A stretch of 64,000 nt of DNA from Solibacteraceae bacterium (GTDB lineage Bacteria; Acidobacteriota; Terriglobia; Bryobacterales; Bryobacteraceae), in NCBI GenBank assembly GCA_021324015.1, contig JAJPJX010000059.1, forward strand, positions 1-64,000, given 5' to 3'. The notes under the pieces are model-generated. The model did no database searches. It was not told the DNA's origin and was given only the letters and a program-made list of their open reading frames with translations. The translations under genes were made by a program, and so were the position numbers. This document shows, one piece after another, positions 1,932-14,542 of this stretch; within the stretch, counting starts at the first letter, position 1, and every line of letters begins with the position of its first letter.

Positions 1932-1981
1932 CTTGAGGGCCTCGGTGGATTTCTGAGTGCCGGCACCGGAGGCCCCTCAAG
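1932..1981 (-). terminator. long hairpin at the end of the glycyl-radical operon
   Basis: Arms at 1932-1945 (CTTGAGGGCCTCGG) and 1966-1981 (CCGGAGGCCCCTCAAG) pair over their whole length with two single-base bulges; a second palindrome GTGCCGGCAC sits in the loop (1957-1966). The stop codon of the activase (1977-1979) lies inside the first transcribed arm. No T-tract follows, so it may be a terminator of the L-shaped kind or a 3'-end stabiliser. Confidence 0.55.
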
Positions 1982-2876
1982 CGGCCAGATATTCCAAAAA
2001 TGTCTCCCGCCACCGGCGCTGCTCTTCCACTCCCGGCAGCGCCTCGGGCAGTTCCTCGAGCCCCGGCATTCCAGCGGTTCGCCGCTTGGCGATCACGCCG
2101 GGATTGTAGGAAAGCAGTTGGCAGGCCGAATAGCCCGTCTCCCGCAGGAAGCGGGCCGCGGCGCGGAGGTTCCGGTCCGTAGTGGTGATCCCAGGAATCA
2201 AGGGCATTCGCGGCACGAGTTTGCTCCTGGCGGTGGCCGCCAGTTGCCGGAAGTTCCGGAGGATTGCCGCGTTCGGCCGGCCAGTGTACTTCCAGTGATC
2301 GGCCGGATCCAACAGCTTCACGTCGAAGTAAATCAAGTCCGCGTAGGGGAGCACCTGCTGCGTGAAGGCGGCCGCATCGTAGAGCCCGCAGGTCTGGACT
2401 GCCGTGTGAATCCCGACGCGTTTCAGCTCTTCGAGGACGCCGCTTAAGTACTCGATGTGCATCGCCGGTTCTCCTCCGGAAAAGGTGGCTCCTCCTCCGG
2501 AGACATCGAAAAACGGCCGGTCGCGCAGGATCAGCTCGACTAACTGGCCGGGCGGATAGTACGTGCCGATCATCCGCAGCGCCGCCGGCGGACACGCCTC
2601 CGCGCAGTCTCCGCACGCCGTGCAGGCCTCCCGGTTCACTCTCTGCGCGGCGTCCGGACAGATGGCGCCGGCGCCGCAAGCCCTGGCGCAACTTTCGCAA
2701 TGGATGCACAGTTCGGAGTGGAACCCGATTTCCGGGCCTTCGCTCTGGCACTCCGGGTTGTGGCACCAGATGCAGGCGAGCGGACAGCCCTTGAAAAAGA
2801 CGGTTGTGCGGATTCCCGGCCCGTCGTCCAGCGAAAAGCGCCGGATATTGGCGATGAGCGGGCGGCCGGCACTCAT
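1977..2876 (-). CDS. glycyl-radical enzyme activating enzyme (radical SAM, PflA-like)
   Basis: 299-residue radical S-adenosylmethionine enzyme that would abstract a hydrogen from the glycine of the partner encoded at 3344-5839. The SAM cluster motif is CPLACIWC (residues 31-38, C-x3-C-x2-C). A ferredoxin-like insert with two further 4Fe-4S cluster motifs follows (CIHCESCARAC at 57-67 and CTACGDCAEAC at 85-95), the arrangement of activases for dehydratase- and lyase-type glycyl radical enzymes and absent from the classical PflA of pyruvate formate-lyase. Length fits the family. The ATG overlaps the end of the SCP2-like gene by 4 bases, so it is the last gene of a coupled trio; a strong hairpin covers its stop codon. 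Cytoplasmic, anaerobic chemistry expected. Confidence 0.92.
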   Translation of the reverse strand: MSAGRPLIANIRRFSLDDGPGIRTTVFFKGCPLACIWCHNPECQSEGPEIGFHSELCIHCESCARACGAGAICPDAAQRVNREACTACGDCAEACPPAALRMIGTYYPPGQLVELILRDRPFFDVSGGGATFSGGEPAMHIEYLSGVLEELKRVGIHTAVQTCGLYDAAAFTQQVLPYADLIYFDVKLLDPADHWKYTGRPNAAILRNFRQLAATARSKLVPRMPLIPGITTTDRNLRAAARFLRETGYSACQLLSYNPGVIAKRRTAGMPGLEELPEALPGVEEQRRWRETFLEYLAA

Positions 2877-3331
2877 ACAGCCCTGGTTGCAATGAGTTGC
2901 AGGCGCCGCGCCATATACGCGAGCTTGTACAGGTAGTTGAGGTTGCCTTCGAGCCTCACCTCCTGCCGCAGCATGGAGCCCAGGATATCCGCCTTCGGGG
3001 CTAATAGAAGGTTCCGCAAGGCCTTCGGGTTCTGAAACGTGATGATGATGTTCGGCTGGGCATCTTTCCGGCGGTGGGGCCAGACTTCCAGCCGGTCGTG
3101 CCGGAAAATGGCCGTCACCACCATGCTGTCATCCGCGGTCCGGAACACGTAACAGGCGTCGAACCGTTTGATGTTTTCCCGGTATCGGGCGTTAAAGAAC
3201 AGCACCGCCGCCATCAGGTCGAGCAGCAAGGTCAGGAATCCTTCGGCCACTTCCGACTCGAGGCACTCGCGGAACTTCTCCACCAGTTTGTCGGCCACAA
3301 GGTTGGACCCAAGTTCGAGAGGATGCGTCAT
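2873..3331 (-). CDS. SCP2 sterol-binding-domain-like protein
   Basis: 152 residues without signal peptide or membrane segment. The C-terminal half (IITFQNPKALRNLLL, then a short linker and a GNLNYLYKLAYMARRL segment) resembles the SCP2 lipid-binding fold, in which a hydrophobic cleft holds an acyl chain or sterol. It lies between the glycyl radical enzyme (12 bases upstream) and its activase (4-base overlap), so it is very probably co-translated with them and serves the same pathway, perhaps as a carrier for a hydrophobic substrate or as an accessory protein. That role is inference; the family assignment is moderate and rests on the pattern of hydrophobic residues and the final helix. Confidence 0.65.
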   Translation of the reverse strand: MTHPLELGSNLVADKLVEKFRECLESEVAEGFLTLLLDLMAAVLFFNARYRENIKRFDACYVFRTADDSMVVTAIFRHDRLEVWPHRRKDAQPNIIITFQNPKALRNLLLAPKADILGSMLRQEVRLEGNLNYLYKLAYMARRLQLIATRAV

Positions 3332-3343
3332 AATCTTGATTCC

Positions 3344-5839
3344 TCAGTTGCCGGGGAGCATGGACTTCGCGCGCTCGGGAAATGCCACGGCTGAGCCGGT
3401 ACGCAGGTCGTACGCGGTCCGGGTGATGATCTCCTCCTTCATGGCATCGTTCAGGTCTTTGAAGTAGGCGGAATATCCCGAGACGCGCACCAGCAACTCC
3501 GGGTAGTTCTCCGGATGCGCTTTGGCGTCGAGCAGCATCTCGTAGGACATGATATTGAACTGGATCTGGATGCCGCCGCACTGGAAATAGGCCTCGATGG
3601 CCTGGCTGAACCGCTTCAGATCATCCTGGTCCTGGATGGCCGGATATTTCAGATTGAAGGCCTCCCCGCCGGGGATCTGGAGAGCGTCGAGCGAGGCCAC
3701 GCCCAGGAGGCAACCCGCCAGGTCCGCTGCCGCCTGCGAAACCGGCGTGATCCCGCTCGCAAAGACGCGCCCGGCTTTCCGGCCGTTTGGCAGCGCGCCG
3801 GCGAGCTTGCCTTGTCCGGCATGGTTGGTCATGGTCCAGTAAGCCGGCCGGTATCTTCCTCCGCGATAGTTCACATGCCGCTGGTAGGTCTCATACAGGA
3901 ACGCGACCAGGTTCCGGGAGTTTTTGACCGCCACCGGATCGTCTGTGCCGTACTTGGGCGTCCGGTAGAGCAGATACGCGTGCAATTCTTCCGCTCCTGC
4001 GAAGTCTTTCCCGAGGGCTTCGATGATCTGGGGTAGCGTGTACTTCCGCTCGAGAAAGACGGCCTTCTCGATGGCGCTGATCGAATCCACTGTGTCGGCG
4101 AAGCCTATGTGGGTGGCGCCCGAGGAATTGTAGAGAGCGCCGCCGAAGATCAGGTCTCTGCCCGCGTCCATGGGACCTTCGAAAAGCCCGGAAAGCAGTG
4201 GCGTGGGCAGGCACTCCTGGTGCGTCCTGCCCAGGCATTCGTTCAGTTCGATGGCCTGCTCGATCAGCCACCCGAGTTGGCCGGTGAACGCCTTCCAAAA
4301 GTCCTCAAATGAGCGGAAGGATGCCGGATCGCCTGTCTGCGGGCCGATTTGTTCCTCGCCGGTGACCGGGCGCTTGCCGTTATACAAGGTGAGTTCGAGT
4401 ACCGCGGGCAGGTTGAACAGGATGGAACTCGAAGAGTCGTAGCTGCGCCCGGAAGCCGACAGCTCCACGCAGCCGATCACGGAGTAGTCTCGGGCGTGGC
4501 GCGTGGGAATTCCTTGGTTCTCCAGGGTGGCGATAGCGGCTACGTCGTTATAAAAGGCCGGCACCGCCTTGGTATTCGCCACCACCTCCGCCACGCGGTC
4601 GCGGTACTCCCTCGGGTTGACCTGGTAGTGATAGCGGGCATTCAGGCTGGGGTCGCGGGTTTTCAGCAGTTCGGTCACGCGCAGCATGAGATACGTCAGG
4701 TCGTTCACCGCGTCCTGGCCGTTCTCGTCCACCCCGCCGACCGTCACGGCCGGCACGGTTCCGGCACCGCCAAACAGCTCCTCCGCCGTCTCCGGCACCA
4801 GGTTCGTGTTGTCGTTCAGCTTCAGCCACAGGCAACCCAGCAGTTCGAGGGCCTCCTGCACAGCCAAGGATCCGGAGTCGATGTCGCGCCGGTAGTAGGG
4901 ATACAGGATCTGATCCAGCCGCCCTGGGCTGACGGCCATGTTGATGTTCTCGGCGTGTACCGCAATATGCAGGATCCAGATGGCATTCAGCGCCTCCCGA
5001 AAACTGCTCGCCGGGTTGGCCGGCACGCGGCTGCACACCTCCGCCATCCGGACGAAGTTTGCCTTGCGGGCCGGGTTGGCTTCCTGTTCCGCCAGTTCCG
5101 CCGCCTTCCGGCTCAGATTGCCCGCATAGTTGACAATCCCCTGGAGCGCGATCCGGACCGCTTGCCAGAACTCGGCCTGCCGTGCCTCCTCGGCGGAGAG
5201 CGTCCCTTTTCCGCGGACCGCGGCTTCACGGGCCGCCGCCTCGGCCATGATGGCGTTCAGCCCCTTCTCGAGTCCCAGCCGGTAACACGGCACCGTGTGC
5301 GACACCGCTCCGGCTTTGCCGGCCAGGAAAAACACGATGCGCTCAAATAGCCGCATGGACGGGGGATTGTGGCACCGGGTTCGGGTCGTCTCCAGGACGT
5401 TGCGCTCCATCCAGTAGGGAAAGATGCGCAGATTCAGCTCCTCGGCGTCCTCGGGGGAGATGCGCTGCGGATTCTTCTCCCGTGTGCTCATGGTGTCCAG
5501 TTCCGGCCAGATCGTCAGGCCGGTCAGTTCCGGATAGACCGGAGCGCCGAATGGCTTGGACGTGGTGGTGCCGGCCAAAAGGCTGTCATCGAAGAAGAGG
5601 GGCGCCTTATTGGAGAGGAAATAATGCATCGCCCTCGCACGGCGCAGTTCGGCCGATTCTTCGGGCACGGAGAAATCCCGCAGGTATTCCGTGACGTACT
5701 TGGCCCGCTCGATGCAGACCTGTGCCCTGGCGCGCAGGCATTGCGTGCGCAGTTCTCCCAAAGACCCCAAGGTTTCTAAAGTATAGTCCACGAGCTGAAT
5801 ATCCGATAAAGTCACCGCCGGCGAAGCGACCGAGGCCAT
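3344..5839 (-). CDS. glycyl radical enzyme, PFL2/dehydratase type
   Basis: 831 residues. The start at 5839 is chosen because AGGGAGG lies seven bases before it; a longer frame reaches 5878 but has no such signal. The glycyl loop near the C-terminus is RVSGYSAYF, with the radical glycine at about residue 788. The catalytic cysteine loop is IGCVELSASG with Cys near residue 457 and a Glu two residues on. A single Cys followed by x-Glu is the pattern of glycerol/diol dehydratase, choline lyase and related enzymes; pyruvate formate-lyase has two adjacent cysteines. The segment SPGRLDQILYPYY is the usual core motif. The usual GCVEP is GCVEL here, so the substrate is open. Followed by an SCP2-like gene and the activase; preceded by two alpha-galactosidases on the same strand. 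Confidence 0.92.
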   Translation of the reverse strand: MASVASPAVTLSDIQLVDYTLETLGSLGELRTQCLRARAQVCIERAKYVTEYLRDFSVPEESAELRRARAMHYFLSNKAPLFFDDSLLAGTTTSKPFGAPVYPELTGLTIWPELDTMSTREKNPQRISPEDAEELNLRIFPYWMERNVLETTRTRCHNPPSMRLFERIVFFLAGKAGAVSHTVPCYRLGLEKGLNAIMAEAAAREAAVRGKGTLSAEEARQAEFWQAVRIALQGIVNYAGNLSRKAAELAEQEANPARKANFVRMAEVCSRVPANPASSFREALNAIWILHIAVHAENINMAVSPGRLDQILYPYYRRDIDSGSLAVQEALELLGCLWLKLNDNTNLVPETAEELFGGAGTVPAVTVGGVDENGQDAVNDLTYLMLRVTELLKTRDPSLNARYHYQVNPREYRDRVAEVVANTKAVPAFYNDVAAIATLENQGIPTRHARDYSVIGCVELSASGRSYDSSSSILFNLPAVLELTLYNGKRPVTGEEQIGPQTGDPASFRSFEDFWKAFTGQLGWLIEQAIELNECLGRTHQECLPTPLLSGLFEGPMDAGRDLIFGGALYNSSGATHIGFADTVDSISAIEKAVFLERKYTLPQIIEALGKDFAGAEELHAYLLYRTPKYGTDDPVAVKNSRNLVAFLYETYQRHVNYRGGRYRPAYWTMTNHAGQGKLAGALPNGRKAGRVFASGITPVSQAAADLAGCLLGVASLDALQIPGGEAFNLKYPAIQDQDDLKRFSQAIEAYFQCGGIQIQFNIMSYEMLLDAKAHPENYPELLVRVSGYSAYFKDLNDAMKEEIITRTAYDLRTGSAVAFPERAKSMLPGN

Positions 5840-5863
5840 CACACACCTCCCTTGCTGGCAAGG

Positions 5864-5893
5864 ATCATACTCTTGCACGAATTATGATGCAAG
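5864..5893 (-). promoter_or_regulatory. candidate promoter and operator of the glycyl-radical trio
   Basis: On the minus strand TTGCAT (5887-5892) and TATGAT (5864-5869) are 17 bases apart and lie just upstream of the start at 5839. A perfect inverted repeat CTTGCA, 10 bases, TGCAAG (5872-5877 and 5888-5893) overlaps this promoter, as an operator would. The -10 is good (5 of 6), the -35 weak (3 of 6), as in regulated promoters. Confidence 0.45.
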
Positions 5894-5902
5894 CAGATCT
5901 TT

Positions 5903-7378
5903 TTAGCGGTTTAATCCGCGAAGCCGTAGCATCCTGGAGCCATGTTTCGGCAGCCTGGCACGAAATTCCCCGTCATATTCCCCCAGGTCCGTGTGACTCC
6001 AGACGTCCCGCACGGCCTGTTTTCCCCGGATACTCAGGTCCCGCCAGCGGGCCGCGACATCGGCTTCGCTCTCGCCGCGGTTGAACAGGGCGGCCGCTTT
6101 GCTGCCGTCCGCCAGGTCCTTCGCCCAGACCTCCGTGTCGCCTGATTTCCATACCGGAGCGCCCTGCCTGCCCAGCACGTCCTGGTTGATGTCGATGACC
6201 TCGTCGTTCGTCAGCAGGTCTAGGGTGAAATCGTCGAGCTTGGTCATGTCGCCGCCGAAAACCAGCGGGGCCGCCAGGATGCTCCACAGTGTGACATAGC
6301 TGTACTGCTCGTCCGCGGTGAGTGGCGTGGGTTGCAGTTTCCTGTGCCAGAGGATCTGGCCAATCAGCAGGTTGTCCGGATCATTCCATCCGCCGGGCCC
6401 CGCCCACTTCTCCTTGCCGGCCTGCGAGAAGCCGACTTCGGACACGCGTTCCCAGAGCCCCGCTTTCGCGCTCCCTACGTCGCCCGTGGTCCGCCAGAAA
6501 TTCCCGCCGGCCCGGCGCCCCCACTCCCAAACGTTGGCCAGTCCGTACTGGCATAGGTTATACACGAAATCCCGGTCGAGTTTCTCCAGCGCCGCGTGCA
6601 TCGCCAGGTAGGGCTTTTCATTCTCTTCCACGCTGTTCCGGTCTTTGATCAGTTTCCGGTAGGAACAGAGGTCGTACTTCAGAAAATCGAATCCCCACCT
6701 GGCGAACTGCCGGGCATCCTGCTCTTCGTGGCCGTAGCTGGCCTCATAGCCCGCGCAGGTTAGCGGCCCCGGTCCGATATAGATGCCGATCTTGAGGCCC
6801 TTCGAGTGAACATAGTCGCACAGCGCCTTCATGTCTGGGAATTTTTTGTTCGGGAGCAGATTGCCCTCCCCGTCGCGGGCTGCTCCGCCGACCTCCGGGT
6901 CCGGGGAGCCCGGTTTTACGTTCCACCCGTCATCGATGTTGATGTAGCTGTAGCCGTGCTGGATGAGGCCGCTCGAGACCATGGCGTCGGCCTGGGCGCG
7001 CACCAGTTGGTCGCTGATCTGCGCGTACGCCATGTACCAGGTGCTCCAGCCCATCGGAGGCGTGAGCGCCAGTGTGTCGCCCGAGACAATCCGGAACGCA
7101 CGCTCGGCCGTTCCGTGCGAATTCCTGGCGCGCAGCGTGACGGTGTACTCACCCCGCTCGGGGCTCGTACCCGTGATCCGCCCGGTATTCGAATCCAGTT
7201 TCAGGCTCCGCGGCAGGCCCCTGGCGGAGAACTTCATCGGGCGCGGTCCCGTGGCGGGAATGGTGTAGAGAAACGGCCTCGCGGGGTGAACCCCATAGAC
7301 TTTTGGCCCGTTGATGCGCGGCGCATCCGCCGCGGGCGCCACGGTGGCAAATATCAGAAGACACCAGATCCGTTTCAT
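5903..7378 (-). CDS. GH27 alpha-galactosidase, exported
   Basis: 491 residues; ATG at 7378 with AGGAG in front (the open frame continues upstream but has no other signal). A Sec signal peptide ends near residue 17. An Ig-like putative domain (residues 20-100, ending before DTLALTPPMGWSTW) precedes the GH27 barrel. Catalytic residues expected from the family are visible: nucleophile Asp236 in FLKYDLC and acid/base Asp300 in FWRTTGD; GWNDPDNLLIG (330-340) is the family signature. It would release terminal alpha-galactose from oligosaccharides or glycolipids in the periplasm or outside. It sits 50 bases after the GH36 gene and before the glycyl-radical trio on the same strand. The related alpha-N-acetylgalactosaminidase activity of GH27 cannot be excluded. 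Confidence 0.92.
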   Translation of the reverse strand: MKRIWCLLIFATVAPAADAPRINGPKVYGVHPARPFLYTIPATGPRPMKFSARGLPRSLKLDSNTGRITGTSPERGEYTVTLRARNSHGTAERAFRIVSGDTLALTPPMGWSTWYMAYAQISDQLVRAQADAMVSSGLIQHGYSYINIDDGWNVKPGSPDPEVGGAARDGEGNLLPNKKFPDMKALCDYVHSKGLKIGIYIGPGPLTCAGYEASYGHEEQDARQFARWGFDFLKYDLCSYRKLIKDRNSVEENEKPYLAMHAALEKLDRDFVYNLCQYGLANVWEWGRRAGGNFWRTTGDVGSAKAGLWERVSEVGFSQAGKEKWAGPGGWNDPDNLLIGQILWHRKLQPTPLTADEQYSYVTLWSILAAPLVFGGDMTKLDDFTLDLLTNDEVIDINQDVLGRQGAPVWKSGDTEVWAKDLADGSKAAALFNRGESEADVAARWRDLSIRGKQAVRDVWSHTDLGEYDGEFRARLPKHGSRMLRLRGLNR

Positions 7379-7402
7379 ATTGCTCCTGTTTGCGGTATGC
7401 TG

Positions 7403-7428
7403 CCGAGTTGCGACCGCTGGCAAGCGGG
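7403..7428. repeat. dispersed intergenic repeat, copy 1 (diverged)
   Basis: CCGAGTTGCGACC followed by a degenerate AAGCGGG end, between the GH27 start and the GH36 stop. It is the most diverged of eight copies of a 26-base element seen in this window (others near 21437, 32508, 36225, 38660, 48877, 58947). Confidence 0.5.
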
Positions 7429-9600
7429 CTATTGCTCGGCCTGCAGTTCGATCGCGGCGGCGCGCCACGGTTCGGCTAGCGTTACCCGGAGGCCCTGTGC
7501 CGCCAGTTCCTGCTGCTGCATGACCGGGCCCGGTTTGCCGTCGATGCTCACGCGATACGCAGCGCCGGGTTCGAGCCCGTGCAGCCGCAAGAGCTCCTCC
7601 GCCCCGCTCTCGCCGAGGCGGTAAGCCATCACCACGCTGCGCTTGCGGTCCGGCGCCACGTACTGCAGCACCATCCACCCGGCGGGGTCCTGGTTGGCCG
7701 GCGGTGGCGTCAGGTGATACACATCCGCGCCCATGATGATCGGGCGCAGGCGCTTGTAGAGCGCGACGTTTTCCGCCGCACGCGTTTTCATCCCGGCATT
7801 CCAGTCGAAGACCCGGCTGGAGATGCCGTACTGGCCGTTCATCGGCACCCGGAACATAAAATCCCACCAGCCGGCCGGCTTCGACAGATCCACCTGACCC
7901 CGAGAGGTATCGCCCACCATCCAGTGATTGCAGACTTCCGGCGCGAACTCCATGGTGCAGCCGTATGCCAGTTGCACGGAAGGGAGCGGCTCCACCACGT
8001 CGGAGAGCCAGTTGGTGTGCGTGTGGCCCATGATCCCCAGATCGAAGCGCAGACCGCCGCTCGAGCAGTTCTCGATGAAAAGCTGCGGGTGGGCGGCGCG
8101 CACCTCGTCCAGCCACGCGTAGTAGTTCGCGATGTGGTCCGCCAGCACGTTGCCTGTGCGCGCGCGCCCGGGTGGATCGAACTCATCGCCAATATCGATG
8201 TTGTAGTCGATCTTCATCCACTCGAGTTGGTAGTCCCGCACCAGCCGGTCCACCACCGCGTGGGCCCATTGGCGCACCTCGGGCTTGGCGAAGTTGAGCA
8301 TGTATCGCACTCCGCGCCGGATCGGCTGGCCGTTGTAGCTCAGACACCAGCCGGGATGCTCGCGGAACATCTGAGACTCGGCGCCCAGGTTTTCGATCTC
8401 CACCCAGATGCCGAACTTCATACCCCGGCTGCGCACATGTCTGGCCAGCTCTTCGAGACCGTTCGGAAACGCGACCGGGTCGGCCTGGTAATCGCCCAGT
8501 TCGCTGGACCAGTTCTTCTTGTTGTACCAGCCGGAGTCGAGGACGAACACTTCCGCGCCGATCTCGGACGCCATATCGGCGCATTTCTTCATGTCTTCGA
8601 CACTCATCTTTCCGGGGAACGGATACCACGAGTTGAACTGCACCAGCCGCGGCTCGTTGTTCGGCGTCCGCGGGAAGACGTAGGCGCGCTGATACCGGTG
8701 CATCTGGTTTGCGGCGTCGTCCAGATCGCCGGCCGAAGCCGTGAAGGCCACTTCGGGCAATTGCCGCGACGCGCCGGCGGGCAGCGCCAGCGCGCCTTCA
8801 AAGTCGTTCAGGGTTCCCAACGAGGCGTCCAGTTCCACCTCTCCCAGGCGCGTCTGGGCGGAACCGGGCGTCTTCTCGAAACGCATCTGCCAGTTCCCGG
8901 AGTAGGCCAGTTGTGCCAGGTAACGCACGCCGAGAGTGTTGTTGCGCAGGGCGAACCAGGGCGAATACAGGCTGGTGGACCGCCCTCGACTGGAGACGAT
9001 GGACCGTCTCCCGGCGCCCAGTTTCTCGGTGGCGAGTTGTCGCTCCTGTCCCCACCCGCCCCACAGATAGGTGAGTTCGTAGTCGCCCGGCGGCAACAGC
9101 AGCGCCAGTTCCGGCAGCGATTCCACGTACATCGTTTCGGAACCGGCGTTGGAGAGCGTCAGCCGCCGGGTAATGACGCCGGTCTCCCCCCACGTTACAT
9201 AGCGCGCCTCGATTCGCAGCGGAATCCGGCGATGCCGGTACACCAGCGCCAGCGCGCTGGTCCCTGGTTTCCAGGTGCCGGTCTCATGCGCGACGAGTTC
9301 GAGTTCCTCCGGGGCGATCGCCTGCCCGTCCACCCGGCCCGCAATGTCGGACGGAGTGTAGGCGGCTCCGCGGCGGGGAGCCTCCCGTTTCCAGTCCGCC
9401 ATCCCGGCGGGTCCGAAATATTCCAGGCGAACCGATTGTTTCTCCTGCCGGAGGCGATATTCTACCGGTCCGGTGGTGAGTTTCCAGGTCTGCTGTGAGT
9501 TGTCGTATTGGATCTCCGCGGTCAGCGCCGCCGGTCCCGCGAGCGTGGCCGCCATGCCTGCCAGCACGGCCAGCCGCCGGGAACAAAGTCGGTGTCTCAT
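7429..9600 (-). CDS. GH36 alpha-galactosidase, exported
   Basis: 723 residues with a signal peptide ending near Ala28. N-terminal beta-sandwich domain (about 30-300), then the TIM barrel. The nucleophile is Asp465 in WMKIDYN, the substrate-binding signature ENCSSGGLRFD lies at 510-520, and the acid/base is Asp534 in NWLSDVVE. Length agrees with bacterial GH36 enzymes. It releases alpha-1,6-galactose from raffinose-type sugars, galactomannan or galactosyl glycerides. The gene follows the TonB receptor by 27 bases and is followed by a second, unrelated alpha-galactosidase (GH27), so the two probably share one substrate class with complementary linkage or size preference. No clear Shine-Dalgarno; a hairpin stands directly in front of the start. 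Confidence 0.93.
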   Translation of the reverse strand: MRHRLCSRRLAVLAGMAATLAGPAALTAEIQYDNSQQTWKLTTGPVEYRLRQEKQSVRLEYFGPAGMADWKREAPRRGAAYTPSDIAGRVDGQAIAPEELELVAHETGTWKPGTSALALVYRHRRIPLRIEARYVTWGETGVITRRLTLSNAGSETMYVESLPELALLLPPGDYELTYLWGGWGQERQLATEKLGAGRRSIVSSRGRSTSLYSPWFALRNNTLGVRYLAQLAYSGNWQMRFEKTPGSAQTRLGEVELDASLGTLNDFEGALALPAGASRQLPEVAFTASAGDLDDAANQMHRYQRAYVFPRTPNNEPRLVQFNSWYPFPGKMSVEDMKKCADMASEIGAEVFVLDSGWYNKKNWSSELGDYQADPVAFPNGLEELARHVRSRGMKFGIWVEIENLGAESQMFREHPGWCLSYNGQPIRRGVRYMLNFAKPEVRQWAHAVVDRLVRDYQLEWMKIDYNIDIGDEFDPPGRARTGNVLADHIANYYAWLDEVRAAHPQLFIENCSSGGLRFDLGIMGHTHTNWLSDVVEPLPSVQLAYGCTMEFAPEVCNHWMVGDTSRGQVDLSKPAGWWDFMFRVPMNGQYGISSRVFDWNAGMKTRAAENVALYKRLRPIIMGADVYHLTPPPANQDPAGWMVLQYVAPDRKRSVVMAYRLGESGAEELLRLHGLEPGAAYRVSIDGKPGPVMQQQELAAQGLRVTLAEPWRAAAIELQAEQ

Positions 9601-9609
9601 GTCGCGTGA

Positions 9610-9625
9610 CCGCCTTGTGAGGCGG
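9610..9625 (-). other. hairpin between TonB receptor and GH36
   Basis: CCGCC, six bases, GGCGG fills most of the 27-base gap between the receptor stop (9628) and the GH36 ATG (9600). It could attenuate or stabilise the message at the junction and lower expression of the enzymes relative to the receptor or the reverse. Too short and without a T-tract to be called a terminator. Confidence 0.4.
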
Positions 9626-9627
9626 CT

Positions 9628-12600
9628 TCAGAATGCGAACTTCAGTCCGAACTCGATCACCCGCGGCGAGTTGCTCATGCTGGTGATCCTGCCGAAGGTC
9701 GAGTTCAGCACGGTGGTGTTCGGGTTTCCCAGGTTGGGATGATTCAGCAGATTGTAGAAAGAGGAGCGGAACTCCACCCGCTTGCTCTCCATAATGTAGA
9801 AATTCTTCACGGCGGCCATATCGATGTTCCAGCTTCCCGGCCCGTAGAGCCAGTCGATCCCGGTCTGCCCGAACGTGCCGACGGCATTCTGCACGAACGC
9901 GGCAGTGTTGAACCACTGCGCCATGCGGTCCTGCTTGCTGCGGCCGCCCGGCAGGCGCCAGTCGGCCACCATGTCCGCCGTGTCCGCGCCGATGCCGGTC
10001 AGCGAGTTGTCGCGCCCCGACCGCACGGTCAGCGGCGCCCCCGTGACGGCGTTGACGATCCCACTCAACTGCCACCCGCCCACGAGCAGTCGCTGCCAGC
10101 CGGGCGAACCCTGCTTGCCCCAAGGCATATCCCACAACGCGGAAGTGATGAAGTTGTGGCGGCGGTCGAGGCCCAGCGGGCCGTAGTCCAGCCGGTAGTT
10201 AAACGGATCGCGCGGGCCGTTGCTGCCTTCGCCGCCGGCGGAGGCGCCCGCGATCCCCAGCGCCTTCGAGAATGTGTACGAGCCCAGAATGGTGAAGCCC
10301 TGCGAATAGCGCTTGTTGAACACGATCTGCGCGCTGTTGTAGTTGGCGCTCAGGTTGCTCAGGAAGTTGTTGATCAAACCGATCTGCGGATACAGCCGCC
10401 GCGACTGCGTATTGCCGATGGTGGACTGCCCCGGGATGTACCGCGCCGGGTTGGCCTCTGCCGAAGTGCTCATGTGCGAGCTCGAGCTGCCCACATAGTT
10501 CAGTTCCACTGCCGCGTCGGTTCCCACGGCGCGCTGGATGGAGAGGCTCCACTGGTAGTCGGATTGCGTTTTGAACGGCAGGCCGAAAGTAGTTTCATTG
10601 GCGGTGGGCACGAAATCCGCCTGCTTGAGGGCATTCAGGTCGCCGGCATTCGGACGCGGGAACGGGCTCACGCCATTGAACGGAGCGCCCGCGAAGATGT
10701 TGTAGGCGTCCGCCCCGTACACCGTTAGATCCGTGGTGAACGGCTGGATCAGGGTGAAGCGGTTCAGGCTGATGCCCCGGGTGAGCGGCACATAGAACAC
10801 CCCGAAACCGGCGCGCACTGAGGTCTTGCCATCCCCCTGCACGTCCCAGGCCAGCCCCACGCGCGGCGCGAAGTTGTTCTTCCGGCTGCCCACGATGCTG
10901 GAGGCCACGCCAGCGTCGCCCGGAAACAGCAGCCCCGGCGCCGCCTTGGGCATGAACGTCGACTGTTTTCCCGGCGCCAGCAGCATCAACTGGCTGTTCT
11001 CGGACACATAGCCGAAATACGGCTCCCAGCGCAGCCCCAGGTTTACCGTCAGTCTGCGGCTGACCTTCAGATCGTCCTGCAAGAAGAAACTGGGCAGGTT
11101 CTGCCGCAACCGCGACGTCAGGCCGGTCACCTGGCGGTAATTGTCAAACTTCCCCAGCAGCATGTCGGCCGCGGCGTTCCCCGAGAAGGCCCCCGAAAAG
11201 ACCATGTTGCCGCCGGTCAGCCAGTTCTGCAGTTCGTTCACGCGGTTATGGTACACCTCGAAGCCAAAGGCCACGCTATGCCGCCCTTTGATCCAGGACA
11301 GGGTGTCGGTGACGTGGTGCGTGGGCATGATGTCGCGCGTCGGATACCCGGTGTCCGCGGAGACGAAACCCGAGATATTCAGGATGGATTGCGCCGTCAG
11401 TCCGTAGCCCGTGTTCATATTCGCCAGGCTGATTGGCAGGCCCAGTCCCGTCAGCGAGAAGTCCTTCCTGGCCAGCATTCCAAAGGTGCTCCGCACGTAC
11501 GTGAAGCGGAATGTGTTGATGAGCGTCGGCGAGAACAGGTGGTCCTCGCCCGCGGTCCAGTTCTGGAACCGGGTCGGCAGGTCGGTGAGCCAGTCCGGGC
11601 CCACGTTGCTGGCCTGACCCACCTGCGGGACGTCATTGTAGAAGTAGCGGAAGGTAATCTTGTCGCTGTCGCGCACCGAGTAGTCGATCTTCGCGATCAA
11701 CTGGTTCTGGTCCAGTTTCTGCCCCACCGGAGCGAATTGGAAAAAATCCCCGGCGTTCGGCGCCGGCAGATACTCATTCACGAACTTGCTGGCGTACGGC
11801 CGGATCCGCGAGGCGGGAATGATGTTGCCGGGAAAGGCCATGCCCGGATTGTCCGGATCGTTGAGCGGCTTGCTCTGTGCTGAAAAGTTGCCCGCGCGCT
11901 CGTTGGCGTTGAGCGTGCGGTAGCGCACGTCGCCCGGTGTTCCACGGGCCTTGGTTCCCTGGTAGCTGGCGAAGAAAAACAACTTGTTCCGGGCGATGGG
12001 TCCGCCGATGGTGCCCACGTACTGATTGCGCTTGAATTCCGAGCGTTTCGCCGAAAAGAACGGCCGCGAATCCAACTTCGTGTTCCGCAGGAACTCGAAC
12101 AGCGTGCCATGGAACTCGTTCGTGCCGGAACGTGTGACCGCCGTCACCGCTGAAGATCCGCGCCCGAACGCGGCGCTGTAATTGCGCGAGGTGGCGGAAA
12201 ATTCCTGCAGCGCGTCGGGATTTGGATATTCGTTGGCGATGGCGTAGAACGGATTCATATTGTTGCCGCCGTCCAGCGAAAAGTTCATGTCGATGTTTCG
12301 CCCCCCGGAGGTACTGAAGGTGGTTTGTGTCGCACCCATTTGCCCGGCCGTGCCCGCCGAAACCACGCCCGGCAGCAGCGCCACCAGTTGCAGCGCGTTG
12401 CGTCCGTTCAGCGGCAACTGTTCGATGCGCTTGCTGTCCACAAGCTGTGACACCGAACTCGTCGAAGTGGTCACCGGCGGCGGGCTGGCATGCACCTCGA
12501 TGCTTTCCGATACGCTGCCGATTTCGAGGGTGGGGTGGACCGTCATCTGCTGGCCCACGGTAAGCACAACGGGTCCGATTACCAGTTCGCGGAACCCCTG

Positions 12601-12852
12601 CGCCGTCACCTTGATGGTGTACTCCCCACGGGACAAGTCCGGAAAATTGAAATACCCTTGCTCGGAACTCTCCCCGTGCCGGGTACCCCCGGTCTGCGTG
12701 TTCGTGAGTACCAGCGATGCGCCCGGAATAGCCGCTTGAGTGGCATCCACCACAGTTCCGTTGATGGACCCGGTCACTTGTGCTTGGGCCTGCCGCGGGG
12801 CAAATGCCATCCCCGCCAGCGCCAGGCCCAGCAGTGAAACAGACCAACGCAT
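9628..12852 (-). CDS. TonB-dependent outer-membrane receptor, Oar-like
   Basis: 1074 residues. Signal peptide to about Ala24 (ending QAQA), a carboxypeptidase-regulatory-like beta-sandwich at about 26-110 (GTVVDATQAAIPGASLVL), a plug with the conserved RIEQLPLNGRN segment near 145, and a long beta-barrel closing with LKFAF, the aromatic end recognised by the barrel assembly machinery. The Acidobacteriota have many paralogues of this Oar/SusC-related type; they import large glycan fragments through the outer membrane with energy from TonB. ATG preceded by AAGGAGA. It heads a same-strand run with GH36 and GH27, so alpha-galactosides are the likely cargo (inference). A strong promoter lies about 130 bases upstream. 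No SusD partner is present. Confidence 0.93.
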   Translation of the reverse strand: MRWSVSLLGLALAGMAFAPRQAQAQVTGSINGTVVDATQAAIPGASLVLTNTQTGGTRHGESSEQGYFNFPDLSRGEYTIKVTAQGFRELVIGPVVLTVGQQMTVHPTLEIGSVSESIEVHASPPPVTTSTSSVSQLVDSKRIEQLPLNGRNALQLVALLPGVVSAGTAGQMGATQTTFSTSGGRNIDMNFSLDGGNNMNPFYAIANEYPNPDALQEFSATSRNYSAAFGRGSSAVTAVTRSGTNEFHGTLFEFLRNTKLDSRPFFSAKRSEFKRNQYVGTIGGPIARNKLFFFASYQGTKARGTPGDVRYRTLNANERAGNFSAQSKPLNDPDNPGMAFPGNIIPASRIRPYASKFVNEYLPAPNAGDFFQFAPVGQKLDQNQLIAKIDYSVRDSDKITFRYFYNDVPQVGQASNVGPDWLTDLPTRFQNWTAGEDHLFSPTLINTFRFTYVRSTFGMLARKDFSLTGLGLPISLANMNTGYGLTAQSILNISGFVSADTGYPTRDIMPTHHVTDTLSWIKGRHSVAFGFEVYHNRVNELQNWLTGGNMVFSGAFSGNAAADMLLGKFDNYRQVTGLTSRLRQNLPSFFLQDDLKVSRRLTVNLGLRWEPYFGYVSENSQLMLLAPGKQSTFMPKAAPGLLFPGDAGVASSIVGSRKNNFAPRVGLAWDVQGDGKTSVRAGFGVFYVPLTRGISLNRFTLIQPFTTDLTVYGADAYNIFAGAPFNGVSPFPRPNAGDLNALKQADFVPTANETTFGLPFKTQSDYQWSLSIQRAVGTDAAVELNYVGSSSSHMSTSAEANPARYIPGQSTIGNTQSRRLYPQIGLINNFLSNLSANYNSAQIVFNKRYSQGFTILGSYTFSKALGIAGASAGGEGSNGPRDPFNYRLDYGPLGLDRRHNFITSALWDMPWGKQGSPGWQRLLVGGWQLSGIVNAVTGAPLTVRSGRDNSLTGIGADTADMVADWRLPGGRSKQDRMAQWFNTAAFVQNAVGTFGQTGIDWLYGPGSWNIDMAAVKNFYIMESKRVEFRSSFYNLLNHPNLGNPNTTVLNSTFGRITSMSNSPRVIEFGLKFAF

Positions 12853-13141: not shown

Positions 13142-14542
13142 ATGCCGAAAACCACGTGCCCGATGACACGGCGGCAGTTTGCGATTTCGCTGTGCGGCAT
13201 TCCCTTGTCGGTCCCGCTGGCGGCCGCGGAATGGGAGTCCATGCCCTGGAACGAACCGGCCACCGTGGCGAAGGTCTATCTGGCCGGCAAGCCCGTCTGG
13301 CCCAAGCCCACTCTCGACGTGGCGCGGGAGATCGCCGAGATCGAAGCCCGGCTCGGCGAGGTGGCGCGCAAGCACGCCAGCAACGTGCGCTTCGTGGGCG
13401 GCGAGACCATCGCCACCCCGGAAGAGGTGCGTCCCTGGCTCTCCAAAATCGGCGATATCGATGGCGTGCTCATGGTGCCTATCACCCAGCCGACACCTCC
13501 GCTGCGCGCGCTCGTGGACAACCTCACCGTGCCGGGGCTTTTCTTCTCTCGCCCCTACGCCACGCACGCCTGGTCGGGCATCGCCGAAATGCGGAAGAGC
13601 GGCCGCAAGCTCGACGTGGTGGCAAGCTCCAGCTACGGCGATCTGGACCCCTACCTGCGCGCTTTCCGCACCGTCCACCATCTGCGCGCCAGCAAGGTCC
13701 TGGTCGGCGCCGAGCCTCCTGGCGCCCGGCAGGCTACCGCGGACGCTTTCCACAAACACCTCGGAACCACCTTCCAATTCGTCAGCGCTCGCGAGTTCCA
13801 GGCGGCCTTCGACGCCATCGAGGAACGCCAGGCGCAAAAGGAGGCCGAAGAATTCGTGCACGGCGCCCTGCGGGTGGTGGAGCCCTCGCCTCAGGAGATC
13901 CGCAAGGGCCTGCGTTTTTACCTCGCTTTGCAGGACATGCTCAAGCGGGAGCGGGCCAATGCCGTCACCATCGACTGCTTCGGCAGCCTGGCCGCCAATA
14001 CGCTCCCCGGCTATCCCTGCATCGCCTGGTCCAAGTTCAACGATGCCGGCCTCTACGGCGTCTGCGAGGCGGATCTCGCTTCCACCATGACCCAGATGCT
14101 GGTCACCTCCTACTCGGAAATGCCCGGTTTCGTCTCGGACCCGGTTTTCGACGTCAGCCGGAACGAGGTCATCCATGCCCACTGTGTATCCGCCACCCGG
14201 ATGAAGGGGCTTCACTGGCCGTCCTCGCCTTACATCATCCGCAATCACCTGGAAACCAACGAGGGCGCCGTCCTTCAGGTGCTCATGCCGGCCGGGGAAA
14301 CGGTGACGGTGGCGCGTTTCAGCAGCCCCAACAGGTTTCTCGTGTCCACGGCGGAAGTCACCGGCCCGGTGGATAGCGACCGCGGCTGCCGCAGCCAGAT
14401 CCGCACCCGCGTGACCGACGCCGAAAAGTGGCTACAAAACTACACCGCCGGCCTGCACCGCGTGGTGTTCTATGGCGACCACGTGCGGTCCATCGAACGC
14501 ATGGGCCGCCTCATGGGCTTCGAAGTCGTCAAAGAGATCTGA
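13142..14542 (+). CDS. Tat-exported L-fucose/arabinose isomerase-like protein
   Basis: 466 residues. The N-terminus has a twin-arginine motif (TRRQF, residues 9-13) followed by a hydrophobic stretch and AAA, so export by Tat in folded form is likely. The C-terminal half resembles the L-fucose isomerase fold family: VTIDCFGSLAANTLPGYPC and a downstream CEADLASTMTQML segment with the conserved Glu and Asp expected to bind a divalent metal. Cytosolic fucose isomerase has no signal peptide and is longer. Substrate unknown; aldose-ketose isomerisation in the periplasm is inference. It is transcribed away from the alpha-galactosidase operon from a strong promoter. A paired repeat hairpin separates it from the convergent next gene. 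Confidence 0.7.
   Translation: MPKTTCPMTRRQFAISLCGIPLSVPLAAAEWESMPWNEPATVAKVYLAGKPVWPKPTLDVAREIAEIEARLGEVARKHASNVRFVGGETIATPEEVRPWLSKIGDIDGVLMVPITQPTPPLRALVDNLTVPGLFFSRPYATHAWSGIAEMRKSGRKLDVVASSSYGDLDPYLRAFRTVHHLRASKVLVGAEPPGARQATADAFHKHLGTTFQFVSAREFQAAFDAIEERQAQKEAEEFVHGALRVVEPSPQEIRKGLRFYLALQDMLKRERANAVTIDCFGSLAANTLPGYPCIAWSKFNDAGLYGVCEADLASTMTQMLVTSYSEMPGFVSDPVFDVSRNEVIHAHCVSATRMKGLHWPSSPYIIRNHLETNEGAVLQVLMPAGETVTVARFSSPNRFLVSTAEVTGPVDSDRGCRSQIRTRVTDAEKWLQNYTAGLHRVVFYGDHVRSIERMGRLMGFEVVKEI

Follow-up and report, generated by a model that had tools for sequence, protein, structure and literature searches.

A conserved glycyl radical enzyme module with an SCP2-like partner protein, adjoining sugar genes in a Solibacteraceae bacterium

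The stretch of DNA analyzed here, hereafter the window, comprises 64,000 nt of contig JAJPJX010000059.1 from a Solibacteraceae bacterium, the 8.2-Mb genome of which is 98.8% complete. Between positions 1977 and 12852, six genes follow one another on the minus strand with re-measured gaps of 27, 50, 63, 12, and −4 bases, just as the original prediction made from this DNA had described. The run consists of an outer-membrane barrel gene, two glycosidase genes and, at its downstream end, the genes of an oxygen-sensitive glycyl radical enzyme (GRE), an SCP2-like protein, and a GRE activase. These last three genes (the trio) are the main subject of this report.

3344..5839, minus strand: GRE of 831 amino acids, with PFL-like and Gly_radical domains; subclade A (GCVEL)
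2873..3331, minus strand: SCP2-like protein of 152 amino acids with a predicted fold, partner of the GRE and fused to it in five loci elsewhere
1977..2876, minus strand: GRE activase with the Pfam domains Radical_SAM and Fer4 (ferredoxin-type clusters); 4-base overlap with the SCP2-like gene

A conserved three-gene module of GRE, SCP2-like protein, and activase

A scan seeded with an alignment of SCP2-like sequences, in which 84,980 species were represented by one genome each, yielded 59 loci. A GRE, whole or in part, was found in 57 of them, an activase in 51, and all three genes in 50, which shows that the trio is one conserved module and agrees with the original prediction in treating it as a unit. 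The stretches available around these loci span only 3.7–20.4 kb, which leaves room for undetected genes farther away; the SCP2-like gene stands near the start of the L054 stretch and near the end of the L058 stretch. By record title, Deltaproteobacteria or their subgroups account for 33 loci and Acidobacteriota for five, and the remainder come from Nitrospirota, Nitrospinota, Planctomycetota, Armatimonadota, Lentisphaerota, an Actinomycetes bin, and an anaerobic methanotrophic archaeon (ANME-2). Named strains are represented by Desulfosarcina cetonica JCM 12296 (L077), in which the end of the GRE, the SCP2-like gene, and the activase lie on one contig, and by Desulfosediminicola flagellatus IMCC35005 (L039, complete genome), in which the GRE and SCP2-like genes stand together with a DUF6765 gene and no activase match occurs in the stretch.

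With gene starts chosen by script, the distance between the SCP2-like and activase genes is at most 10 bases, or the two overlap, in 41 of the 50 three-gene loci, and the −4 overlap seen in the window recurs in 18. Furthermore, the GRE and the SCP2-like protein are fused in one uninterrupted reading frame in five of the 57 GRE loci (L032, L044, L055, L056, and L070); since L055 nearly duplicates L056, and L032 is the sister of L044 in the tree, the fusion lies on about three branches. Frames of 996–1027 amino acids also cover the SCP2 match in four genomes of the Desulfosediminicola order, some of which are the same records as the fusion loci.

The same association is found closer to the window. 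Of 299 genomes of its class searched with the GRE, 16 matched at E ≤ 1e-30. Apart from the window's own genome, three of these have GREs 46–47% identical to that of the window (G017, G025, and G088; the latter two recur among the 59 loci as L073 and L074), and in each of the three the genes for the SCP2-like protein and the activase adjoin the GRE. Other full-length GRE matches of the class, at 35% identity or less, are accompanied by an activase and show no SCP2-like match nearby. Several further Acidobacteriota of this class encode HypD-type GREs with activases (L006-L013); of these, L009 passes the HypD cut-off and the others cluster with HypD in the tree. The nearest relative is a Bryobacterales locus, L027, the GRE of which is 73% identical to that of the window (71–73% for L025 and L027 together); its gene order is GRE, SCP2-like protein, activase, DUF6765, and an unnamed family, and its 12 kb contain no glycosidase homolog.

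The enzyme, its partner protein, and accessory families

The window GRE exceeds the cut-offs of both Pfam families that define the superfamily, PF02901 (557.1 bits, E 8.2e-167) and PF01228 (61.8 bits, E 1e-16), and is the sole PF02901 match found in its genome; the activase passes TIGR02494 (273.4 bits vs. a cut-off of 174.35). Against TIGR01774, the model of the PFL2/glycerol dehydratase subfamily, the GRE scores 558.6 bits, under the curated cut-off of 678.2, as do its relatives L025 (584.5) and L073 (512.4) and, only just, a true HypD-type enzyme (L009, 657.4). It also lies below the equivalog cut-offs of HypD (459.6 vs. 1100), CutC (439.2 vs. 1050), and HpsG/HpfG (447.6 and 387 vs. 1000), and below those of PRK09983, which we take to be PflD (353.4 vs. 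1109), indoleacetate decarboxylase (322.5 vs. 1100), and hydroxyphenylacetate decarboxylase (244.1 vs. 1150). No listed NCBIfam cut-off for a whole GRE is reached by the window GRE, L025, or L073; the positive control, L009, gives 1297.6 bits with the HypD model, over the cut-off of 1100.

Forty-six GRE rows were aligned, namely the window and 45 of the 57 places, 12 being excluded because of stops or length. All 46 retain the motifs SH and GCVE as well as RVSGY, the glycyl loop. A quick tree, calculated without bootstrap, with long-branch warnings among the outgroups, and with L055 omitted as a near-copy of L056, places all 45 SCP2-linked GREs on one side of a branch with a Shimodaira-Hasegawa-like approximate likelihood ratio (SH-aLRT) support of 100 and a long stem. 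They divide into two subclades, GCVEL (27 rows, including the window) and GCVEP (18 rows), and the presence of Acidobacteriota in both suggests that the SCP2-linked GREs have spread horizontally. At the positions compared, the His-Ser of YbiW and of a Chloroflexota GRE corresponds to Met-Ala in the subclade of the window, and the Asp of a PflD-like row to Ser in the window GRE, in an alignment that does not contain glycerol dehydratase itself. The His-Ser pair and the Asp are presumably substrate-pocket residues of the B12-independent glycerol dehydratase; an active site of the glycerol dehydratase type finds no support at these positions.

The SCP2-like protein has no Pfam match at E 0.001. 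Its match to PF02036 (14.7 bits, E 0.041) is below the cut-off of 21.3, and only 23 of 58 family members match this model at E ≤ 1 (best, 6.5e-4). An AlphaFold2 model built from 58 sequences has a mean predicted local distance difference test score (pLDDT) of 89.9 and a predicted template modeling score (pTM) of 0.84. The top ranks of a Foldseek search with it are UbiJ-SCP2 (E 7.7e-5), alkylsulfatases that contain an SCP2 domain, and sterol carrier proteins. VIA-align gave Z scores of 11.9 for the alkylsulfatase Pisa1, 11.0 for human SCP, and 10.9 for UbiJ, with root-mean-square deviations of 2.4–3.1 over 105–112 residues; its best rows (Z 11.9 to 9.5) all belong to SCP2 proteins or to enzymes that contain an SCP2-like domain, and the first entry not named SCP2 or alkylsulfatase follows at Z 7.0. 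Thus, the predicted fold of this protein is the alpha/beta SCP2 fold, and the earlier suggestion that it may bind a hydrophobic part gains from the lipid-carrier character of the model. Across the 58 rows, 43 positions are hydrophobic in at least 90% of sequences, a pattern suggestive of hydrophobic ligand binding. No Cys is conserved, and a nearly invariant stretch reads GNLNY-Y.

Two other families recur beside the trio. DUF6765 is encoded in 29 of the 59 loci (e.g., L052:5900-6973), and its invariant residues (H6, D35, D36, H79, H138, D142, H146, H193, and D201) point to a metal-dependent hydrolase, which may resemble the zinc phospholipases C. An unnamed family (C4/C6; L052:7217-9673, L042:11465-13324) is present in 23 of the 59, in a form of ~600 amino acids and another of 750–830 amino acids, and two representatives gave no Pfam match. 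Its sequences consist of two similar halves with the pattern PWxGKxF ... DELVxIAxGLxLGQL ... FGYFLLMD, possibly calycin-like barrels. Since the best VIA-align match of its predicted model is a calycin barrel (4mve, Z 9.2) and Foldseek returned nothing at E ≤ 0.001 (best, 0.66), the term calycin-like is tentative. A sequence search of PDB chains with the SCP2-like, unnamed, and DUF6765 families gave nothing convincing.

Both families co-occur with the SCP2-like protein. Among 242 genomes of the Desulfosediminicola order, 28 contain the SCP2-like protein, 26 the unnamed family, and 23 both, against 3.0 expected (Fisher p 2.7e-24, inflated, as are all such values here, by kinship among the genomes), whereas DUF6765 occurs in 35 and accompanies the SCP2-like protein in 24, against 4.0 expected. 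The unnamed family is retained even where it is not adjacent: in G025 it lies on a different contig, and in G745 at a distance of 1.7 Mb. It was found in all six other genomes searched that carry the GRE and the SCP2-like protein, although in four of these its presence was already known, which left G025 and G745 as the open cases; DUF6765 was found in three of these six. As for the wider surroundings, 97 of 175 non-core neighbors on the same strand were scanned, after removal of known satellites (papain-like, GH13, amidase, LysM-M15, and others). A pathway drawn from these neighbors was rejected, as no metabolic theme recurs among the 97. Papain-like C1 peptidases, a LysM-M15 peptidase, amidases, and metallophosphoesterases were seen repeatedly near the trio (L045, L050, L053, L025, L080, L074, and L057).

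The sugar genes and the gap before the GRE

Upstream of the trio lie the following features.

5840..5902, minus strand: gap of 63 bases between the GH27 gene and the GRE, with inverted repeats and GGAGG; possible control region of the trio's own
5903..7378, minus strand: glycoside hydrolase (GH) of family 27 with Melibiase_2 and Melibiase_C and an N-terminal He_PIG domain; neighbor of the trio, outside the conserved module
7429..9600, minus strand: GH36 glycosidase, with Pfam Glyco_hydro_36N and Melibiase; neighbor of the trio
9628..12852, minus strand: outer-membrane barrel, OMP_b-brl_4 (PF25183, E 1.8e-213) with an N-terminal CarboxypepD_reg domain; neighbor of the trio

The last of these had been called a TonB receptor; it is an outer-membrane barrel, and the Pfam scan shows no TonB plug-domain match in it. 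The two enzymes described as alpha-galactosidases do belong to GH36 and GH27, with catalytic domains above the Pfam cut-offs (Melibiase 184.9 and Glyco_hydro_36N 86.1 bits in the former, Melibiase_2 162 bits in the latter), and their alpha-galactosidase specificity is presumed from family membership alone; the GH36 protein also has a partial match to the beta-L-arabinopyranosidase model NF053652 (135.6 vs. a cut-off of 1100). Judged by eye from the sequences, signal-peptide-like starts are present in the GH27 and GH36 proteins and absent from the GRE, the SCP2-like protein, and the activase. GC content at third codon positions (GC3) is similar across the six genes (0.79–0.84), and a recent transfer judged by base composition was therefore rejected. 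A defense system was likewise discarded, the sole match of PADLOC on five proteins being a weak one of the activase to a radical-SAM model (PDLC02903, E 8.8e-5). Beyond the run, a plus-strand gene at 13142-14542 has no Pfam match and matches NF048012 (sulfoquinovose isomerase) weakly; a gene 83% identical to it adjoins GH27 in another genome (L085).

Within stretches of 3.7–20.4 kb, homologs of the window GH27, GH36, or barrel were found in none of the 59 trio loci at E 1e-3, L027 included, and the six-gene operon was accordingly rejected as a conserved unit. The trio thus occurs without the glycosidases, a pattern that the original prediction had named in advance as one that would refute its hypothesis. 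Conversely, GH27 relatives are present in 76 of 150 genomes of the window's family, and the 29 best other GH27 loci contain no GRE within flanks of ~1.5 kb or less; their neighbors include GH36 in two, the barrel in four, and the 13142-14542 gene (83% identity) in one. Five of the 29, inspected over 11–15 kb, contain no trio gene, and in L099 GH36 stands beside GH27 without a GRE. One genome of the same family, G043, counts against such separateness, as its GH27 lies ~4 kb from a GRE; this GRE is of the HypD type (1297.6 bits vs. a cut-off of 1100). The barrel, GH36, and GH27 are ordinary for this family of genomes. The run joins two separate modules, the three-gene GRE module being placed directly downstream of an unrelated sugar locus, and the two glycosidase genes are most likely neighbors of the trio and not its partners.

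Within the gap at 5840-5902 are two inverted repeats, CTTGCA..TGCAAG and the short CTTGC-CA-GCAAG, and, shortly before ATG 5839, a GGAGG resembling a ribosome-binding site. This ATG is the preferred start of the GRE; an in-frame GTG at 5878 is less likely. Among 47 upstream regions, CTTGCAT occurs 51–54 bases before the GRE start only in the window and L027; by chance, a given 6-mer would be expected in about one of 47 such regions. TGCAAG is also present upstream in both, and the repeats of L027 lie at about 4291-4341. This shared element hints at separate control of the trio and may be an operator or control element of its own. No sigma-70 promoter or terminator was listed between GH27 and the GRE by a pattern scan, the totals of which were four promoter-like patterns vs. 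2.4 in shuffles and 16 terminator-like patterns vs. 9.9. Four aligned GRE upstream regions show no general conservation (three invariant columns).

Proposed function and comparison with known systems

The evidence leans slightly toward a GRE, probably an eliminase, that acts on a hydrophobic or lipid-anchored hydroxylated substrate brought to it by the SCP2 subunit. The activase would generate a glycyl radical at Gly788, from which the radical would move to Cys457 as a thiyl; the thiyl would then take a hydrogen next to a hydroxyl held by Glu459, and 1,2-elimination would follow, decarboxylation being less likely. The SCP2 subunit would dock on the GRE and present a hydrophobic or membrane-derived hydroxylated substrate, by analogy with UbiJ and quinone intermediates and with what has been proposed for UbiT. 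Substrate presentation has also been proposed for the SCP2-like domain of alkylsulfatases. In genomes that have them, DUF6765 and the unnamed, possibly calycin-like family would serve in the release, binding, or transport of substrate or product; candidate substrates are an alkylglycerol, a lysolipid, a polar lipid headgroup, and an isoprenoid. According to passages of the relevant papers, a conserved glutamate of the GRE IseG has been suggested, on the model of other GRE C-O/C-N lyases, to deprotonate the hydroxyl group of the substrate (PMC6453916), the SCP2 protein UbiT is required with UbiU and UbiV in the O2-independent ubiquinone pathway (PMC6747719), and alkylsulfatases carry an SCP2-like domain (PMC5426288). 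It is tempting to extend this proposal to a whole class of GREs that perform radical elimination on lipids or lipid-anchored molecules through a dedicated and sometimes fused SCP2, with a calycin-like carrier and DUF6765 as accessories, in an anaerobic lipid-modifying or lipid-cleaving system of sulfate reducers, Nitrospirota, Acidobacteriota, and ANME archaea; this combined proposition is more doubtful and is offered tentatively.

Several observations weigh against these proposals. SCP2 folds can serve as mere scaffolds, and the Cys-x-Glu motif also occurs in decarboxylases. The model of the unnamed family is only moderately confident (mean pLDDT 69.9), and among the 97 scanned neighbors the flanking genes show no lipid-pathway theme, with only radical SAM (4) and metallophosphoesterase (3) genes recurring. 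Some loci depart from the trio: L062 shows an SCP2-like gene and, within its stretch, neither a GRE nor an activase match; L038, L039, L043, L063, L068, and L072 have no activase match despite 1.5–10 kb of downstream sequence; and ahead of the SCP2-like gene only ~80 residues of the GRE remain at L038:3845-4087 and L068:3265-3519, away from contig ends, through deletion or an assembly fault. A four-row SCP2-like model matches only one of 396 genomes of the phylum, that of the window itself, so that the system is rare in this phylum. Finally, the window genome has no match to DUF6765 or to the unnamed family, and the module of the window may thus be reduced or changed.

On the basis of this last point, the window copy could be a decaying or repurposed remnant without its partner families; the unnamed family was recovered in every one of the six other genomes searched, allowing for the four known positives. 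However, the three genes are intact, the catalytic residues are kept, the GRE is 71–73% identical to those of L025 and L027, and the unnamed family is also missing from five of the 28 SCP2-positive genomes of one order; a remnant is therefore improbable. A more substantial alternative, although still unlikely, is that the SCP2-like protein acts as a small subunit with a structural or radical-protecting role and that the substrate is small and soluble. Other GREs, such as benzylsuccinate synthase and 4-hydroxyphenylacetate decarboxylase, have small subunits, and the GNLNY-Y stretch is polar enough for a docking motif; on the other hand, the predicted fold is that of a lipid carrier, the numerous hydrophobic positions and the lack of a conserved Cys do not favor such a role, and the unnamed partner family may be calycin-like.

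The original prediction proposed that an alpha-galactosyl glycerol or galactolipid is imported and degalactosylated, and that the GRE then dehydrates the polyol or lipid left over. A lipid aglycone would suit an SCP2 partner, and the six genes do share one strand, short gaps, and a similar GC3. Nevertheless, the lack of glycosidases at all 59 trio loci, the commonness of GH27 without a GRE next door, active-site positions unlike those of the YbiW and PflD-like rows, and the hint of separate control given by CTTGCAT make this alpha-galactoside pathway very unlikely. With it set aside, a conserved SCP2-linked GRE system remains.

The SCP2-linked GRE system is apparently undescribed, although widespread in bacteria: in the open-license PMC literature, no paper was found on a GRE with SCP2 and activase, on an SCP2 sterol-binding domain together with a formate lyase, on DUF6765, or on a GRE with galactosidase in Acidobacteria. 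To our knowledge, characterized GREs act on small soluble molecules or hydrocarbons. If the proposal is true, the pairing or fusion of a GRE with a lipid carrier would extend GRE chemistry to lipids and could account for part of anaerobic lipid turnover or remodeling in sediments. Being compact and present in named strains, the gene set is open to testing. Many abundant GREs of the gut are described as having no known function in passages of PMC11574389.

Among known systems, the PFL2/glycerol dehydratase-type eliminases (CutC, HypD, glycerol dehydratase, and HpsG) share with the present enzyme the fold family, the RVSGY/RVAGY and GCVE motifs, and an adjoining radical SAM activase, whereas the window GRE falls below their cut-offs, belongs to a separate clade with a long stem, and has an SCP2 partner or fusion. 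UbiT and UbiJ resemble the SCP2-like protein in fold, and UbiT, according to passages of PMC6747719, serves an O2-independent Fe-S enzyme and shows occasional gene fusion, taken as evidence there; the partner here is a GRE in place of U32 hydroxylases, with no known quinone link. Benzylsuccinate synthase and 4-hydroxyphenylacetate decarboxylase likewise possess a small extra GRE subunit, from which the present one differs in its lack of a conserved Cys and in its predicted SCP2 fold. The alkylsulfatase Pisa1, the best VIA-align match, offers the parallel of an SCP2-like domain on an enzyme for alkyl-chain substrates; by contrast, its catalytic domain is a metallo-beta-lactamase hydrolase, whereas here the SCP2-like protein accompanies a radical enzyme.

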